64,000 nucleotides of DNA from Tachypleus tridentatus (lineage: Eukaryota; Arthropoda; Merostomata; Xiphosura; Limulidae): the NCBI RefSeq assembly GCF_004210375.1, contig NC_134825.1, positions 72,655,558 through 72,719,557 of the forward strand. The letters are read 5' to 3'. Numbering within the stretch: position 1 is the stretch's first letter; each line of letters begins with the position of its first letter. The translations under genes and the position numbers were made by a program. Positions 10,082 through 57,264 of the stretch are shown piece by piece. Under the pieces are notes generated by a model. That model saw only the letters and a program-made list of their open reading frames with translations. It was not told the DNA's origin and did no database searches.

Positions 10082-11093
10082 ACGTTATCAATCTGACATC
10101 TTTAAGGATTTCAGTAGCCGTGTCTTAAACTGGGTGACGTTATCAATTTTACATCTTTAAGGATTTCAGTGGCCGTGTCTTAAACTGGGTGACGTTATCA
10201 ATTTGACATCTTTAAGGATTTCAGTAGCCGTGTCTTAAACTGGGTGACGTTATCAATTTGACATCTTTAAGGATTTCAGTAGCCGTGTCTTAAACTGGGT
10301 GACGTTATCAATTTGACATCTTTAAGGATTTCAATAGCCGTGTCTTAAACTGGGTTACGTTATCAATTTGACATCTTTAAGGATTTCAGTAGCCGTGTCT
10401 TAAACTGGGTTACGTTATCAATTTGACATCTTTAAGGATTTCAGTGGCCGTGTCTTAAACTGGGTGACGTTATCAATTTGACATCTTTAAGGATTTCAGT
10501 GGTTGTGCCTTAAACTGGGTGACGTTATCAATGTGACATCTTTAAGGATTTCAGTGGCCGTGTCTTAAACTGGGTGACGTTATCAATTTGACATCTTTAA
10601 GGATTTCAGTAGCCGTGTCTTAAACTGGGTGACGTTATTAATTTGACATCTTTAAGGATTTCAGTAGCCGTGTCTTAAACTGGGTGACGTTATCAATTTG
10701 ACATCTTTAAGGATTTCAGTGGCCGTGTCTTAAACTGGGTGACGTTATCAATTTGACATCTTTAAGGATTTCAGTAGCCGTGTCTTAAACTGGGTGACGT
10801 TATCAATTTGACATCTTTAAGGATTTCAGTAGCCGTGTCTTAAACTGGGTGACGTTATCAATTTGACATCTTTAAGGATTTCAATAGCCGTGTCTTAAAC
10901 TGGGTTACGTTATCAATTTGACATCTTTAAGGATTTCAGTGGCCGTGTCTTAAATTGGGTTACGTTATCAACGTGGCATCTTTAAGGATTTCAGTGGCCG
11001 TGTCTTAAACTGGGTTACGTTATCAATGTGACATCTTTAAGGATTTTAGTAGCCGTGTCTTAAACTGGGTTACGTTATCAATTTGACATCTTT
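10082..11093 (+). repeat. 55-bp minisatellite, about 18.4 units
   Basis: Units near ACGTTATCAATTTGACATCT, TTAAGGATTTCAGTAGCC, GTGTCTTAAACTGGGTG repeat every 55 bp, over 90 % alike. Variant sites (GTAGCC/GTGGCC/ATAGCC and GGGTG/GGGTT) show a higher-order pattern. Confidence 0.97.
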
Positions 11094-18139: not shown

Positions 18140-18840
18140 AGTACAATCTACTATTTAAAGTGTTTCTAAATAAGTTAGTGTCATTACTATTTAAATTGTT
18201 CCTAAATAAGTTAGTGCCATTACTATTTAAATTGTACCTAAATAAGTTAGTGCCATTACTATTTAAATTGTACCTAAATAAGTTATTGCCATTACTATTT
18301 AAATTGTACCTAAATAAGTTAGTGCCATTACTATTTAAATTGTACCTAAATAAGTTAGTGCCATTACTATTTAAATTGTACCTAAATAAGTTAGTGCCAT
18401 TACTATTTAAAGTGTTCCTAAATAAGTAAGTGTCATTACTATTTAAAGTGTGTACCTAAATAAGTTAGTGCCATTACTATTTAAAGTGTTCCTAAATAAG
18501 TAAGTGTCATTACTATTTAAATTGTAAATAAATAAGTTAGTGCCATTACTATTTAAAGTGTTCCTATTACTATTTAAAGTTTTCTAAATAAGTAAGCGTC
18601 ATTACTATTTAAAGTGTTCCTAAATAAGTAAGTGCCATTACTATTTAAAGTGTTCCTAAATAAGTAAGTGTCATTACTATTTAAATTGTACCTAAATAAG
18701 TTAGTGCCATTACTATTTAAAGTGTTCCTAAATAAGTAAGTGCCATTACTATTTAAAGTGTTCCTAAATAAGTAAGTGTCATTACTATTTAAAGTGTTTC
18801 TAAATAAGTACGTGTCATTACTATTTAAATTGATCCTAAA
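18140..18840 (+). repeat. 36-bp minisatellite, about 19 units
   Basis: Unit CTAAATAAGTTAGTGCCA, TTACTATTTAAATTGTAC. The period is a multiple of three, so the early units give an open frame of LFKLYLNKLVPL repeats (18106-18429) with no other coding sign. Confidence 0.95.
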
Positions 18841-19305
18841 AATGTAAAAGATATTAATATTTCAAATGTTCCTAATAAATTGCCTGAATACTTTATATTG
18901 CTGTATCAGGTACAAGAAAATGAAAAGGGAAGAGAGAGACAGCTGGTGACAAATGAGTTATAAATTTCTAACGTTGAACTTTGTTTCACCTCCTTAGAGC
19001 GTAAAGCGCAAAATGAGAAAAAACCTTTTAAAGAATCAATTTACTTTTTTAGCCTAATTTTCTTTGTCACCAGACCGTGCGAGTACTTTATCTTTGTAGT
19101 ATTACAAAAAGAGGAGAGCACCTATTATCGGTAAAAGTACTGAAGTTTCTCTAAAATTTTGAATTATTTTATGAAAATTGTAACAAATCTGTAACAGGTC
19201 AGGATTATTTTTCATAAGCCCTGTTATAAAGCTATTTTAGGTTTAGTGTAATTTACGGCCTCTTCTCTGAATGAAACAGCTTAAGGCAGTTGTAAAAAGA
19301 TGTGC
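18841..19305. other. AT-rich DNA without recognised feature
   Basis: No exon, SINE or repeat recognised. Confidence 0.5.
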
Positions 19306-21569: not shown

Positions 21570-22220
21570 TAAGAGACACTTGGTTGATAACAGATGGATT
21601 TTCGTCTTGTGCTCGTAAAGTTTGTTTGTTTTGTTTTTGGTTTTTTTTAAATTTCGCACAAAGCTACTAAAGGGCTATTTGTGCTAGCCTTCCCTAATTT
21701 AGCAGTGTAAAACTAGAGGGAATACAGCTAGTCATCACCACCCACCGCCAACTCTTGGGCTACTCTTTACCAACGAATAGTGGGATTGACCGTCACATTA
21801 TAAAGCTCCCACGGCTGGGAGGGCGAACATGTTTGGTACGAGCGGGATTCGAACCCGCGACCCTCCGATTACGAGTCGAACGCCTTAACACACTTGGCCA
21901 TGCCGGGCCCTGCTCATAAAGACAAGCAGGGTTTGGTTGATAATGAAAAGGAATTCTCACCGGCTGTTTATTATAGAGAATCAACACTGAGATAATCGCT
22001 TAGATATTTTCATGTTGTGTAATAACAGATAGACAACACATGTTAATGTGTTAACATTATAGATTAACATTAGGCTTATCTCAGAAAGATTTATATGTTG
22101 TGCATATTACAGAGAGTTAACACTGCATTGATCACAAAGAGATTTTCATTCTGTTATGTAAACAGGAGATATTGAGTTGATAACAAATGCATTTCCGTCC
22201 TGTATTTGTTAAACATAAGA
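21570..22220. repeat. Third decayed tandem array, ~55-60-bp unit
   Basis: Words like TTGATAACAGATGGATTTTC and GTTATGTAAACAGGAG recur around a SINE-1 insertion (21621-21910), with GTTAACACTG-type joints. Confidence 0.6.
21621..21910 (-). mobile_element. SINE-1 copy with target-site duplication
   Basis: Full-length reverse copy. TGCTCGTAAAG (21610-21620) and TGCTCATAAAG (21911-21921) flank it. Confidence 0.93.
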
Positions 22221-46234: not shown

Positions 46235-46514
46235 GGATATTTTTGTTATTTTAAAGAGAATATATGTAATAACGTTACAAGCTCAGAGTATGTGATATTA
46301 CACGTGTTAAGACACTGATTGTCAGACCAAAATGACAATAAAAGTTGTGCACTTTGAAAACGGAGGAAAACATCAGATATTTCGCCAAAACGCATGCGTG
46401 TCCAATAAATTTGTTTGAGAGATCTGCAAGTTCAACATGTGCAACATCCCTATAAAAGTGATGGGTTCTCGGTTTCCATAGCTCAATGTTAAACCACCGA
46501 CACGCAATACAGTT

Positions 46515-47508
46515 ACGCCAAGACTGCCTGAAGCACAACGCAAAAACGCCATTGGTCGCTTGGAAGCAGGCGAATCTCGATCAGATGTTGCCAGAGCTGT
46601 GAATGTCCACCCAAGCACCATCACAAGGCTATGGAATCGTCACCAACAACATGGATCAACTCGTGACTGTCCACGATCTGGCAGACCTCGTGTGACCACG
46701 CCCGCACAAGATCGCAACATCCGGTTACGTCACCTTCGGGATATTACCACCACTGCGACGTCTACTGCCTCAACCATACCAGGGCTGCGTAGGATTTCCG
46801 ATCAGACCGTACGCAACCGTCTACGAGATGCAGGAATCCGACCTCGATGTCCAGTCAGAGGCGTCATCCTCACCCAGCAACATCGTCAAGCACGGATGCA
46901 GTGGACTCGAGCACATTGGGTATGGCTTCATCGACGATGGAGGCATGTTTGGTTTAGCGATGAATCACGTTTTATGCTTCGTAGGCAGGATGGAAGGACC
47001 CGTGTTTACCGTCGCCGAGGTGAACGTTTTGCGGCAAACTGTGTGCAGGATGTTGACAGATTTAGTGGTGGCAGCGTCATGATGTGGGCTGCCATCGCCT
47101 ACAATGCCAGAACAGACCTTTTGCACATTCGAGGGAATCTTACGGCTCAACGATACGTCGACGAGATTCTTAGGCCCATGTGCAACCCATCATGGTAAAC
47201 GTCAACGACGTTTTTCAACATGACAACGCCCGTCCTCACAAAGCCCAACTCACCACTGCCTTCTTGAGACACCACAACATCAACGTTCTTCCCTGGCCAT
47301 CCAGATCACCAGATTTAAACCCCATCGAACATCTTTGGGACGAGTTGGACCGACGTTTGCGACGGCGACAACCTCAATCGCAGACTCTACCTCAGCTTTG
47401 CAGGCTGAGTGGACAGCCATTCCACAGGATGTGATTCGTCATCTCATCGCTTCCATGGGCAGGAGATGCCAAGCAGTTATTGATGCTCACGGGGGGCATA
47501 CTCGTTAG
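46515..47508 (+). pseudogene. Broken Tc1-family transposase
   Basis: DNA transposase of the Tc1/mariner superfamily, which cuts and pastes the element at TA sites. In order it shows an N-terminal helix-turn-helix (SRSDVARAVNVHPSTITRLW), a GRPR motif, the first catalytic Asp in WFSDESRF, the second in FQHDNARPH, and the Glu in DLNPIEHLWDEL. There are 34 residues between the last two, giving DD34E. It is not functional as read. The first codon of the natural frame appears to be ACG (46515), where ATG is expected. One-base deletions near 47176-47180 and near 47395-47400 break the frame. The final part, IPQDVIRHLIASMGRR, resumes in a third frame and ends at TAG 47506-47508. Only about three lesions suggests fairly recent loss. 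Confidence 0.88.
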
Positions 47509-48788: not shown

Positions 48789-51700
48789 GTAAGAGTCAAG
48801 AGTATAGCTATGTGCTACAATTGTAGTACAAACTAAAGCTACAAAGTATAAGTTATAACTTATAAATATAACTGACAATTATTATAATTATAATACTTTG
48901 CAAAGCCAAAGAATTAAATAGGCCTATTATTATGCTATTATAACTAAAAGTGAAACTTGTCTAAATGTTAAATTTCATTTTCGGTAACAACATTGAAACA
49001 GTAATAGTAGAACTTGTGCAAGTTTGCAACGAAATGAAAAGTTCAGTACTAAAAATTACTGAGGGAACCATGGCAGAAATAGAACTACACCCCGAGGATT
49101 ATTTGCAAGTTATTCAACTTCCTAGAACATGAGCAGTTACACAATAAATGTCAGAGGATCATTCTCCGAGTCATTTGCTTCAGAGGCTGGCATCCCCTAA
49201 GGAAAGTTAGTTAGCCCTATTCATTACGTATGTGAACAATATGCCCTTAAACAAATAACTTTGATGTCGCAATCTGGAAAAGTTCCGCCCCGACCCATAG
49301 CAGCAACAAATCTACAAATTTATTACTAGGAATATCATTTAAGAATTAACGTTCCAAAAATTCAGTTAACATTCACAAGACAAATGAAACATAAAGACCC
49401 ACCAAAATAATAAATGAATGGCACACTTCTCCAGACCACAACCTTGGAAAAATTTCTAGGTTTAACCTTCAACACAAAGCTAACATGGGTGAAACATAGA
49501 AGTTTTACATTAACAAAAATTTGGAAGCTTACAAATTATGCAAGAAGTCTAACCAGCAAAAAATCAAGGAACTTTACCAGCCAATGTAATAAAAATATAC
49601 AAAACATACAACTGATCCTCGAATATGCATGCCCAGCATAGATAAACATTGTACCCAAACACATAAATAAATTACAATCAATACAAAACTCAACTAATAA
49701 CTACAGCATACAAAATTCCTCTCAGTACATTGTCAACCTTTTTTCTGGTTACAAACTATATTAACTGTGTGTGACCCACAATGGAATCTATAACTAATGT
49801 GCAACTTTCCTTAATTATGTAATGTTCATAATGATCACAAAGGAAATTACTGGACTACAGATTTAAAACCACTTGTCCAGAGTCAATGTGTTTATACTCA
49901 AAACATTGGTGACAAAATAAATTGTTGTATCCTTGTTTCAATTTATGTTAACACTTCAAAACATTTTTATCTTAAAGATTTAATAATGATAATTTGGTAT
50001 TAAGATCTTTTACATGATAATTAATCTTTTTTTGTTTTTCTGTATGTATTGGGATTTTTAACAGTTAACTATAAGCAGCATTTTACTCTTATATTTAGTG
50101 TTTGAGGTGTGTTTCTGCCTTTTTTGTGTCTGGCAAGAAAACTCACATAAGTGATATAAATAAGAAATATTATAAAATAGCTATACTGTTTATGTTTAAT
50201 AAAAGAGAAAAATTTACTTAAGAGAGGGTGATATACTATATAAAATTACACTCACTTGTAAAACACAATTAAAAACATTTTAATTATTTTGTCTTTCTTG
50301 CTTTTATAAAACTGTGGTCCCAAAGTATTGTTACTCCTGTACAAACCAGCACATTATCTAGCTAAAACCACATTCTGCAATAAGTTTATCTTAAATAGTA
50401 ATTTAAAACTTGTGATGTTAACCCTTTTGCAACAGGCTTGGTATAATATACACAAGTTTGTCTATGCATTGGCACATGTTATGTATTTGCACTATAACTT
50501 TTGATACAGCATGTGTATCATCAAAATATTTAGTGGACTTTAAATATAGACTACAGTTTTTTGTACATGAAAGTAATATTTTGTTGCAAAATATTTTCAT
50601 AAAGATTTGTTTGTGAAAGTGTTAAGTATGTTTCGTTACTAGTCTAAGTGTAAAGTGATTTCATGTTGTGATGAAAATAAATGTTTTTATCCCAAAAATC
50701 TCAAATATAATTTGTATAATCTCTAAACCCTCCTAGATACATTTCAAATGTTTCTTTTCAGTAAGACTATTTTATTTTCTGTACCCTGACTGTGTGGGAT
50801 TTGTCAACTGATCAACATCGTACCATTATAAAAACAATTGGGAAATAACACTATGTTACACAAATTTTTGTTTCTGGATAGTATGTGTTATTTTGCTTTT
50901 GTACTTGGATAATGAAATTTAGAAATTAATCTATTTTCTATGTAAGAGTGGGCAAATTTGCACATTTTCATTTGCATAAGGTCTGAATAAAACAACATAT
51001 GAATCAATGTATCAATGAATCAAAATACATGTATTTATACTAAAGTTATACAAAAATGAACAAAAATGTTTAGAAATGAGTAGTTTTTCGAGATGGCTGC
51101 TTTTTCTCTGGCAGAGTGGGTACAGGAAGCTTAGGGCAGTCTGGCACTGGGGTGATGTGTGATGGAAGGTCCAGATACATGATAGCAGATGCATTCTTGC
51201 CAGTGTGATGTTTGGAAGGGTCTACCATGCAGAAGTAGCAATTGCTTGAGTGATCAGTAGGTTCATGCCAAATTCTTGGAATAGCGAATTTAATGGCTCT
51301 CTTTTCCCCTCTGTACCATCCTGCAAAAGAGCAAAATAAAATTGTTATTATGAAGAATAAATTTATTTCATCCACAACTAATGTGTAAGAGGTTCATGCA
51401 AAATATTTTGTGATTTTTTTTTCTGTACTATTGGGAGTAAAAAGAAATGAAATAATTTAAAAGATATTTAAATTTTAAAAGGTCTAAAATTTGTATAATA
51501 CAAAGTCTTACTATTCAAGCAAGCAAAAATTGTCCGCCTTACCTTCTAGAGTTTTTTTGCAGTGCTCGCAGGTAAAATGAGGTGTCCAGGGTTTGTCTTG
51601 ATCTGCAACAGGCATGCCAAAATATGTCTAGTAGGCTCCACACATTTAAGCAGTTGCTGTTACAGAGTACTTTCTTTTGCTCTTGTCTTGATAAATTGGC

Positions 51701-54700
51701 CACATACATAACAGAATACATCTGGAGAATGCTTGCAGCTTCTTGATGACATCTCTGATAAAGTCAGATAGGTCTGTGTGTCCACTTAGGCAGCTAGAAC
51801 TAAACTGAAGTGGTGAGTGGTGATCCCATGTATAAACTTATAACTATGAAAAGTTCTAGAAAATTCTGAAAGGTTCTTGAAAATTCTCGTAAGTTCTACA
51901 ACATTCTAGAAAGTTTTTGAAAATTCTTGCAAGTTCAAGAAAATTCTTTATCAGCAGGCAAAATTGAAAATTTCATTACCCAGGTCATAAAAGCAAAGTT
52001 TGAAGAGAAAAATAGGTCTTTTCCTTTACTTTAGGCATAAGCAATTGGGAAATAACACTTTCTGCCCAGGAACAAGAAAAAGTAAAAATTTTGTAAATTG
52101 GCCACATACATACAGAATACATCTGGAGAATGCTTGCAGCTTCTTGATGACATCTCTGATAAAGTCAGATAGGTCTGTGTGTCCACTTAGGCAGCTAGAA
52201 CTAAACTGAAGTGGTGAGTGGTGATCCCATGTATAAACTTATAACTATGAAAAGTTCTAGAAAATTCTGAAAGGTTTTGAAAATTCTCGTAAGTTCTACA
52301 ACATTCTAGAAAGTTTTTGAAAATTCTTGCAAGTTCAAGAAAATTCTTTATCAGCAGGCAAAATTGAAAATTTCATTACCCAGGTCATAAAAGCAAAGTT
52401 TGAAGAGAAAAATAGGTCTTTTCCTTTTACTTTAGGCATAAGCAATTGGGAAATAACACTTTCTGCCCAGGAACAAGAAAAAGTAAAAATTTTGTAAATT
52501 GGCCACATACATACAGAATACATCTGGAGAATGCTTGCAGCTTCTTGATGACATCTCTGATAAAGTCAGATAGGTCTGTGTGTCCACTTAGGCAGCTAGA
52601 ACTAAACTGAAGTGGTGAGTGGTGATCCCATGTATAAACTTATAACTATGAAAAGTTCTAGAAAATTCTGAAAGGTTCTTGAAAATTCTCGTAAGTTCTA
52701 CAACATTCTAGAAAGTTTTTGAAAATTCTTGCAAGTTCAAGAAAATTCTTTATCAGCAGGCAAAATTGAAAATTTCATTACCCAGGTCATAAAAGCAAAG
52801 TTTGAAGAGAAAAATAGGTCTTTTCCTTTTACTTTAGGCATAAGCAATTGGGAAATAACACTTTCTGCCCAGGAACAAGAAAAAGTAAAAATTTTGTAAC
52901 ATAGTGTAATTATACAGTTACAACAGAAAGTGTTCGTATCCCTGCGTCATGAGGAGTTTTTCCTCATAACTTAAAAAGTATCATGATTAAGATTATGAAA
53001 GTTTAGTATATTATAAATATTATACTAACACACATTTACATAAATTTTTATGTAAATTAAACAACAAATAAACTTACATTTTAGTGTTATAATATGCAGT
53101 CATTCCAGCATGACAGAAAGCATAATTTACAGTTACGACAGAAAGTGTTTAGTATATGTAGCTTAAGTCTCATTACATTATATATATTTTTATTATATTG
53201 ACCTTCCAGTCTTGCCTAACTAACAGTATATAATGCATTGAAATTTTGCACATACACTCATTGTATCTGACAGTATAAAACTCACCTCTTGTCTTCCCTC
53301 TCTTGCCTGTGTTTTAGTGGATTAATATTTTGTAATATTCAATCACATTTCAATTATTGTTCATTATATATGTATATATATTATTACTATCTAGATATTA
53401 GCTACAAAATTTATTTTTCTTAAAATGTAGAACAGTAAATAATGAAGTAAAGCAAACAGTTGTCCCTTCTAGCTGTGACCTTTTAATTCGATTGCTGCTG
53501 GACATAAGTTGCTAATCCTTTTAAAATTTTGCAATTGTGGATTTTAGGATTTATATATACATTTTAATAATCAAAAAATCATAAATAACTGTAATAATGC
53601 CATAGAATTCCACTATAATTTTATTAAGCTTAGAAACTAAGATGTATTTAGGTTTAAAATAATATGAAACTTCAGGCAGACTAAAGACACAACTTACCTT
53701 CTTGAAATCTTGGTTGGAAAGAACGTGCTAGCCTTTTTACAGGTTAAAATAGCTAAGAAGACCACTAGGGGACATACTAAGTTATCAATTGGTTATTTGC
53801 ATATCATATATTGAAGTGTATGTAATGGACCATTTCCAAAAATGGAAAGAGGTGAACTGAGCCACTGTCTTTGATTCAGTACATAAGCCATATCTAAAAT
53901 AAAAAGATTTGAGGTTCTTATTTTATATTCTAGCATGTCAACATTAGTACTTTCAGTTCTTAATTTGTACAAAACTATAGACGTAGTATTTTAAAATCAC
54001 AGACATTTAATTTTGAACAGTGCTGCATCCAACATACCACATGACTCACTAAAATCTATATTTAGGTGTTTTATTTTAATATTTACATTTAAATTAAGAA
54101 ATTAACTCCTATGTAATATTGAAGTTTGAATTATAATCTGCACTTTGATTCCAAACTTATTGACATAAATTCATAAAATAGTAGTGCAATAAAATTTCAA
54201 ATGCAAGCCAACAAACGTGATGACATGGCCTTTGACCAGTGTCCTGACGTGAAAGAGTTAAAAGGAAAATAGACAAGCTTTAATCACTTACATGACTGAA
54301 TCAACAATCTCTTCCATCTTGGTGGCTAATGATGAATGATGTTTTTGCTTTTATTTAAAATATGGTTGTACTAAATGTCTTTTTTCATGTAAGCTTCCAT
54401 TTACAATGTCATAGAATCAAGACTGGATAAGCTAAAATGTAAAAACAGGGATTTAAGTTCCAAGGATATCATTACATCACTTCAAGCAGTTCATCATGGC
54501 CATGTGGAAAGAAGAGATCTTACTGATCTGCCAGTCACATGCTCACACTACTCTGATTATGAAAGTGTTGATATTAATGAAGAAATAAGTTCTTCATATA
54601 TTGAAGTAAGACTTTGTTTGATAATAATTTATTAACTATCCTAAACTCAAGATTCACAAGCATTGATTTTTGTTTCTTCCTTTCAAGGTGAGAAAAATGT

Positions 54701-56361: not shown

Positions 56362-56460
56362 ATGGAAGTACGTGTGAAACATTCCTTCAGAGTATTTTAA
56401 AAATTGCTTTAAAAGAGACTGATGTCTTTTTTGCATGAGGTTTGTTGTACTTGTTTGTAT

Positions 56461-57080
56461 ACTCTTTAAGCATTATCTATTAACTGTAGTTTTCATTCAG
56501 TATTTCTGTTCTTAGTTTTCATGACTTTTGATTGCTATCCTCAACATACAAGAACTGTGTTGGCTGTATGTTGTCTATATTCATACTATTTAAGCATTAT
56601 CTATTAACTGTAGTTTTCATTCAGTATTTCTGTTCTTAGTTTTCATGACTTTTGGTTGCTATCCTCAACATACAAGAACTGTGTTGGCTGTATGTTGTCT
56701 ATATTCATACTATTTAAGCATTATCTATTAACTGTAGTTTTCATTCAGTATTTCTGTTCTTAGTTTTCATGACTTTTGGTTGCTATCCTCAACATACAAG
56801 AACTGTGTTGGCTGTATGTTGTCTATATTCATACTCTTTAAGCATTATCTATTAACTGTAGTTTTCATTCAGTATTTCTGTTCTTAGTTTTCATGACTTT
56901 TGGTTGCTATCCTCAATATACAAGAACTGTGTTGGCTGTATGTTGTCTATATTCATACTCTTTAAGCATTATCTATTAACTGTAGTTTTCATTCAGTATT
57001 TCTGTTCTTAGTTTTCATGACTTTTGGTTGCTGTCCTCAACATACAAGAACTGTGTTGGCTGTATGTTGTCTATATTCAT
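56461..57080 (+). repeat. Tandem array, five 124-bp units
   Basis: The word ACTcTTTAAGCATT recurs at 56461, 56585, 56709, 56833 and 56957, and the fifth unit ends at 57080. The units differ by only a few substitutions, so expansion is recent. It lies 345 bp downstream of the CCDC32-like stop and may be part of its 3' UTR. Confidence 0.93.
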
Positions 57081-57264
57081 ACGAATTATTTTTTTAAACT
57101 CTAGTTTTTACAGTAAAGCATCTGTGTAATCTTTGCCAGTGTGTCTGGATTAACAATTTCTTAAAATGGAAATAAGTTTATCTTTTCATATTACACCATA
57201 ATTGTTATTACACAGATGTGATCAGTGTAAGTCTGTTGTACATTTTTGAATAACTCATTCGATG

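Follow-up and report, generated by a model that had tools for sequence, protein, structure and literature searches.

To our knowledge, the activation of transposons by stress is an old idea for which there are few animal cases with a visible promoter logic. Arthropod promoters of the hsp70 type combine heat shock elements (HSEs) with a TATA box near -30 and a TCAGTT-type initiator. Among mobile elements, the closest known case to the one described here is that of the HSE-carrying Helitrons (rolling-circle elements) of Caenorhabditis. These Helitrons hold many genomic HSEs and recruit HSF-1, and genes near them are induced, according to Garrigues et al. 2019 (PMC6927752), who also suggest that mobilisation under stress may have been aided by HSEs located in the promoter of the transposase. 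Helitrons upstream of fbxa-215 feature in later work (PMC12062965), and in plants the LTR retrotransposon ONSEN is described as heat-activated (PMC3907296, PMC12859917). Below we describe two unrelated transposon families of a horseshoe crab that, judging from their DNA, are likely to carry transposase promoters driven by heat shock factor (HSF); in each, a long HSE array would be the regulatory portion of the promoter that belongs to the transposon itself.

The starting point was the window, that is, the whole 64-kb stretch of DNA analysed, in which the presence of TTCnnGAAnn arrays was confirmed as real and far outside chance expectation. Three arrays lie on the minus strand: array 1 at 51854..51946, the middle array (array 2) at about 52255..52347, and array 3 at 52656..52748. 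The earlier note had reported 19 alternating TTC and GAA triplets, 14 of them exact, in all three copies; this is true for arrays 1 and 3 but not for the middle one, because a one-base deletion there breaks the register, which is gone over part of the length (11 of 19 triplets exact in the best frame). The HSE geometry as such was borne out, both by these two arrays and by the family majority array, which has 15 of 19 triplets exact and is thus interrupted as well. Outside the arrays, the best 19-triplet score in the window was 5 of 19, and in 64-kb sequences simulated 20 times with a first-order Markov model the best score was 4 (13 times) or 5 (7 times). Markov sequences matched to the array in composition (5,000, each scored at six offsets) did not exceed 6. 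Runs of at least three exact pentamers occurred eight times in the window, all eight inside the arrays; with roughly one imperfect triplet in four, no unbroken exact run exceeded three pentamers. The three arrays belong to a tandem triplicate (51692..52899; period 401, 3.0 copies, 99% matches), each unit of which contains an array, a TATA, an initiator and a start codon, with a minus-strand ATG downstream of each array (51752-51750, 52153-52151 and 52554-52552). The triplication was absent from 20 aligned copies of the element, each showing a single array, so that the three-array arrangement in the note is not a structure of the family.

The arrays lie within an internally deleted, non-autonomous DNA transposon (50849..52906, gene on the minus strand) with the termini CACTATG...CATAGTG, for which an inverted terminal match was present in other copies. 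It is flanked by TAA target site duplications (TSDs) at 50846..50848 (left, less certain) and 52907..52909 (right). The left flank CAATTGGGAAATAA (window 50835-50848) duplicates a stretch from the right subterminal region of the element itself, and the left border may therefore be a secondary rearrangement, which makes the TSD in the window less certain. An exact TTA or TAA duplication was found in the window and in four of nine other copies (L013, L015, L022, L027); it was mismatched in two (L017, L028), and in three the right end was worn or missing (L016, L021, L023). These nine copies were about 1.25-2.4 kb long, with the right end taken 291 bp from the array start. The transposon origin proposed earlier for the arrays is supported, and the window family shows, in its CACTATG termini and TTA/TAA duplications, the terminal inverted repeats and fixed-length TSD of TIR DNA transposons. 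Exon 1 of its gene (51543..51752, minus strand) opens with the ATG and closes at a GTAAG donor-like site, with a frame that is broken in the window copy and open in copy L018; a remnant of exon 2 follows a TTTGCAG acceptor-like site (51070..51320, minus strand), and the remainder of the gene is missing. Longer copies, for example L010 and L017, retain more of the transposase-like gene, broken in places. In Pfam searches, two long pieces of the L010 gene matched no family and two short pieces of L018 gave sub-threshold matches only, sensitivity being limited by the broken state of the pieces; a PDB sequence search of the element's gene pieces gave no relative, two matches at E 0.4 being taken as chance. 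PIF/Harbinger elements have a TWA target duplication and a DDE_Tnp_4-type transposase, and CACTA/EnSpm elements have CACTA termini, a 3-bp TSD and a Transposase_21-type protein. The TTA/TAA duplication of the window family fits TWA, but a DDE_Tnp_4-type transposase was not found by Pfam in the broken gene pieces; with regard to CACTA/EnSpm, CACTATG termini and a 3-bp TSD were observed, and the same broken pieces had no Pfam match. With its internal deletion and locally triplicated promoter unit, the window copy is a relic and could at most be a cis element. For the CCDC32-like host gene that had been placed around it, a profile search gave no match in the host genome, and none in control genomes either, so that this negative carries no weight.

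Several other features of the window were recorded. A Tc1/mariner-type transposase remnant occupies 46482-47508, with HTH_Tnp_Tc3_2 above the cut-off in 46482-47198 and no match to it in the next frame (47224-47508). Minisatellites are located at 10082-11093 (55 bp x 18.4, 96% matches), 18149-18875 (36-bp arrays) and 56459-57082 (124 bp x 5, 98% matches). A tRNA-like sequence at 21834-21904 scored 44.3 bits, above the Rfam gathering score, was not called by ARAGORN, and is perhaps a tRNA-derived SINE.

The earlier note had placed the arrays upstream of the element's start codon, and the minus-strand order of array, TATA, TCAGTT and ATG agrees with this. Array 1 is followed by a TATA region (51829..51846), in which a TATA begins 36 bp and again 28 bp before the initiator A, and by an initiator-like TCAGTT (51803..51808) whose A, at 51806, lies 54 nt before the ATG and is the predicted start. 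Read in the direction of the gene, the family's usual layout is terminus, three-pentamer HSE, about 31 bp, long array, 13 bp, TATATATA, TCAGTT, 54 nt and ATG; the upstream three-pentamer HSE has been lost in the window copy. Initial searches gave 1,541 candidates for the array (40 scored) and 4,920 for exon 2 (150 scored), unconfirmed as copies. As a guard against circular sampling, the promoter sample was picked by match to the exon-2 protein and not by the array, and comprised 25 loci (list ranks 2-12 and 14 of the other 138 places, near the top and bottom ranks). All or part of the array was retained in 22 of the 25 loci, and 23 aligned to the promoter region. The remaining two, L059 and L061, had no promoter match within their 651-bp slices, in which an array at another distance could be missed; L051 had lost the array almost wholly, and L050 kept its far part and lost the TATA side. 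The start codon could be placed in 20 of the 23 aligned copies (not in L050, L057 and L070), and in 17 of these the initiator A was exactly 54 nt before the ATG. TCAGTT was exact in 12 of the 20, with one mismatch in seven and two in one. A TATA was present 28-34 bp upstream of the initiator in 16 of the 20 copies (script range 18-45 bp), including L064 and L066, in which the TATA counted is a different one and the usual box has been shifted to 23-25 bp by a 7-bp deletion; at this distance it was absent from four (L047, L049, L055, L067). The sequence therefore has the layout of an RNA polymerase II core promoter, in which the TATA precedes the initiator, at a predicted start site, by about 30 bp. 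The separate three-pentamer HSE, approximately 31 bp upstream of the array, was exact in 14 of the 23 copies, with spacers that differ from those of the array and a position out of the array register (the three-pentamer value of L052 belongs to its array and was excluded from this count).

Genome-wide, seven exact pentamers occurred at 183 places on both strands versus 0 for the reversed pattern, and five exact pentamers gave 1,897 matches, overlaps counted, versus 12 for the control. The first 100 of the 183 seven-pentamer places corresponded to 86 distinct sites, of which 54 share the 33-mer TTCTAGAATATTCTAGAAGCTTCAAGAATATTC within 4 mismatches and are of a piggyBac type. Over 12 spacer bases, the other 32 show 0-2 differences to window-family arrays and 5-7 to the piggyBac array; a shuffled-spacer control had a mode of 4 differences, with 37 of 640 also reaching 1-2. 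All 86 sites examined, which represent the first 100 of the 183 places, can by these sequence comparisons be assigned to two families, and studies of HSF binding in this horseshoe crab must therefore handle them. Seven-pentamer sites do not represent the typical copy, given exact runs of three pentamers in the window and a longest exact run of 4-5 in nine other copies.

The second family was recognised in a piggyBac copy (L072/L073; G000:C1:155712750-155714200) with an HSE array before a TATA and start codon. In this one site, the promoter reads on the minus strand as array, 14 bp, TATATATATA and an ATG opening a long frame, and a 300-aa stretch of the L072 frame matches PF13843 (DDE_Tnp_1_7) with E=1e-51, its score of 176.7 bits lying far above the cut-off (22.4). 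The N-terminus alone had no Pfam match. Searched with a query beginning seven codons before the ATG, it was found in at least 150 places, at 89-100% identity and with open frames of up to 595 aa, from which the family is probably young. An N-terminal match began 32-39 bp downstream in 38 of the 54 piggyBac-type sites (exactly 33 bp in 34) and was absent in 16. Conversely, of 88 N-terminal places compared on contigs C1-C8, 38 had a perfect seven-pentamer site no more than 300 bp away, and for the other 50 there was none at that distance among the matches listed. No piggyBac element or arthropod transposon with an HSE array was found in the literature at the level of titles and abstract openings, which is not proof of absence. 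The array-to-TATA gap is 14 bp in the single piggyBac copy read versus 13 bp in the usual layout of the window family. That a second, unrelated family has the same order of parts strengthens the heat-promoter idea, and two unrelated families with gaps of 13 and 14 bp make both an accident and a transposase-binding role unlikely.

The accident in question would be a 10-bp minisatellite inside a transposon, with a chance likeness to HSEs and no role. Its expected signature is found in part in the way that the copies decay. Contrary to the free loss of array or register that the earlier note would have counted against its reading, 22 of the 25 sampled loci keep all or part of the array and 13 of 23 array indels are whole 10-bp steps (10, 20 or 30 bp), the other 10 not being such steps and some of them being alignment artefacts. 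Such steps keep the register, yet repeat slippage alone would do likewise, so the length changes fit a minisatellite as well. Three copies (L058, L060, L066) have an array longer by 30 bp, and the array thus also grows. Nor are the cores under extra constraint within copies, as a minisatellite would have it: on columns with ten or more letters, per-copy divergence was 66/1096 (6.0%) for HSE cores, 46/685 (6.7%) for spacers and 6.4-7.4% for flanks. Core-versus-spacer conservation as proof of selection was accordingly tested with a negative outcome. As cores, spacers and flanks diverge alike, the copies decay neutrally, without sign of continued selection; equal divergence is expected where dead copies decay neutrally, and it neither supports nor excludes function in active source elements. 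A low array divergence in a first 20-copy alignment, from which the near-identical rows L018, L019 and L024 had been dropped, was set aside because its copies were picked by array similarity and the alignment was biased; 17 further loci (L029-L045) were also array-chosen and were used only in comparison pools. What a minisatellite leaves unexplained is the location of the array immediately ahead of TATA and initiator in the majority of the 20 copies, the separate upstream HSE with different spacers, the recurrence of the part order in the unrelated piggyBac family and the genome-wide absence of the reversed seven-pentamer pattern, and we regard this explanation as unlikely.

Two further roles for the array were weighed. 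Subterminal repeats may bind an element's own transposase rather than HSF, and the array does lie within about 300 bp of one terminus, but in nine copies exact pentamers never came three or more in a row at the opposite end of the element, and the motif geometry recurs in an unrelated transposon whose transposase is a different one; this role appears very improbable. Alternatively, a palindromic array might serve another factor, such as a STAT-like one, or a structural role such as nucleosome exclusion, given that TTC/GAA half-sites are common to several factors. STAT sites are TTCNNNGAA, whereas the array has a gap of 2 bases and repeats every 5 bp, which is the geometry of HSF trimers, and we consider another factor or a structural role quite improbable.

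We thus return to an HSF-driven promoter, for which the support at the level of sequence consists of the register, the place of the array relative to TATA, initiator and ATG, its persistence across copies, the same order of parts in piggyBac and an HSF domain in the host. A profile search of the genome gave one match to the HSF DNA-binding domain over the whole profile (E=6e-22) and four further partial matches, of which three contain stops. When the cell is stressed by heat or at the level of its proteins, HSF trimers would bind the TTC/GAA array on the minus strand, transcription by RNA polymerase II would begin at the initiator TCAGTT, some 30 bp beyond the TATA box, and mRNA of the element's transposase-like gene would be made. 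We infer HSF binding, heat induction and a rise in transposition upon induction, and heat may in this way switch on two unrelated transposon families. No heat-stress RNA study of horseshoe crabs was among the literature matches listed. A broader scenario is put forward tentatively, as one that we think has somewhat less than an even chance: the two families would have independently placed the host heat-shock switch before their transposase, heat would mobilise both together, and their copies would have seeded perhaps over a thousand strong HSF sites, outnumbering those of the host's own genes and perhaps drawing neighbouring genes into the heat response.

Compared with known systems, the horseshoe crab families resemble the Caenorhabditis Helitrons in being DNA transposons that carry HSEs. 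They differ in belonging to an arthropod and to two other families of DNA transposons, and in having arrays of some 19 pentamers ahead of TATA, initiator and ATG; HSF-1 occupancy and induction have been measured for the Helitrons, whereas for the horseshoe crab families they are predicted from sequence. ONSEN differs from both families in being a plant LTR retrotransposon rather than a DNA transposon. The piggyBac superfamily, which has TTAA as its target site, shares the DDE_Tnp_1_7 domain with the second family, but the latter is distinguished by an HSE array before the TATA. With arthropod hsp70-type promoters, the window family has HSEs, TATA and a TCAGTT-type initiator in common, while its promoter is on a mobile element and contains more pentamers than the 3-6 quoted in the earlier note. 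A promoter logic that is readable in two unrelated transposons of one arthropod offers a built-in comparison.
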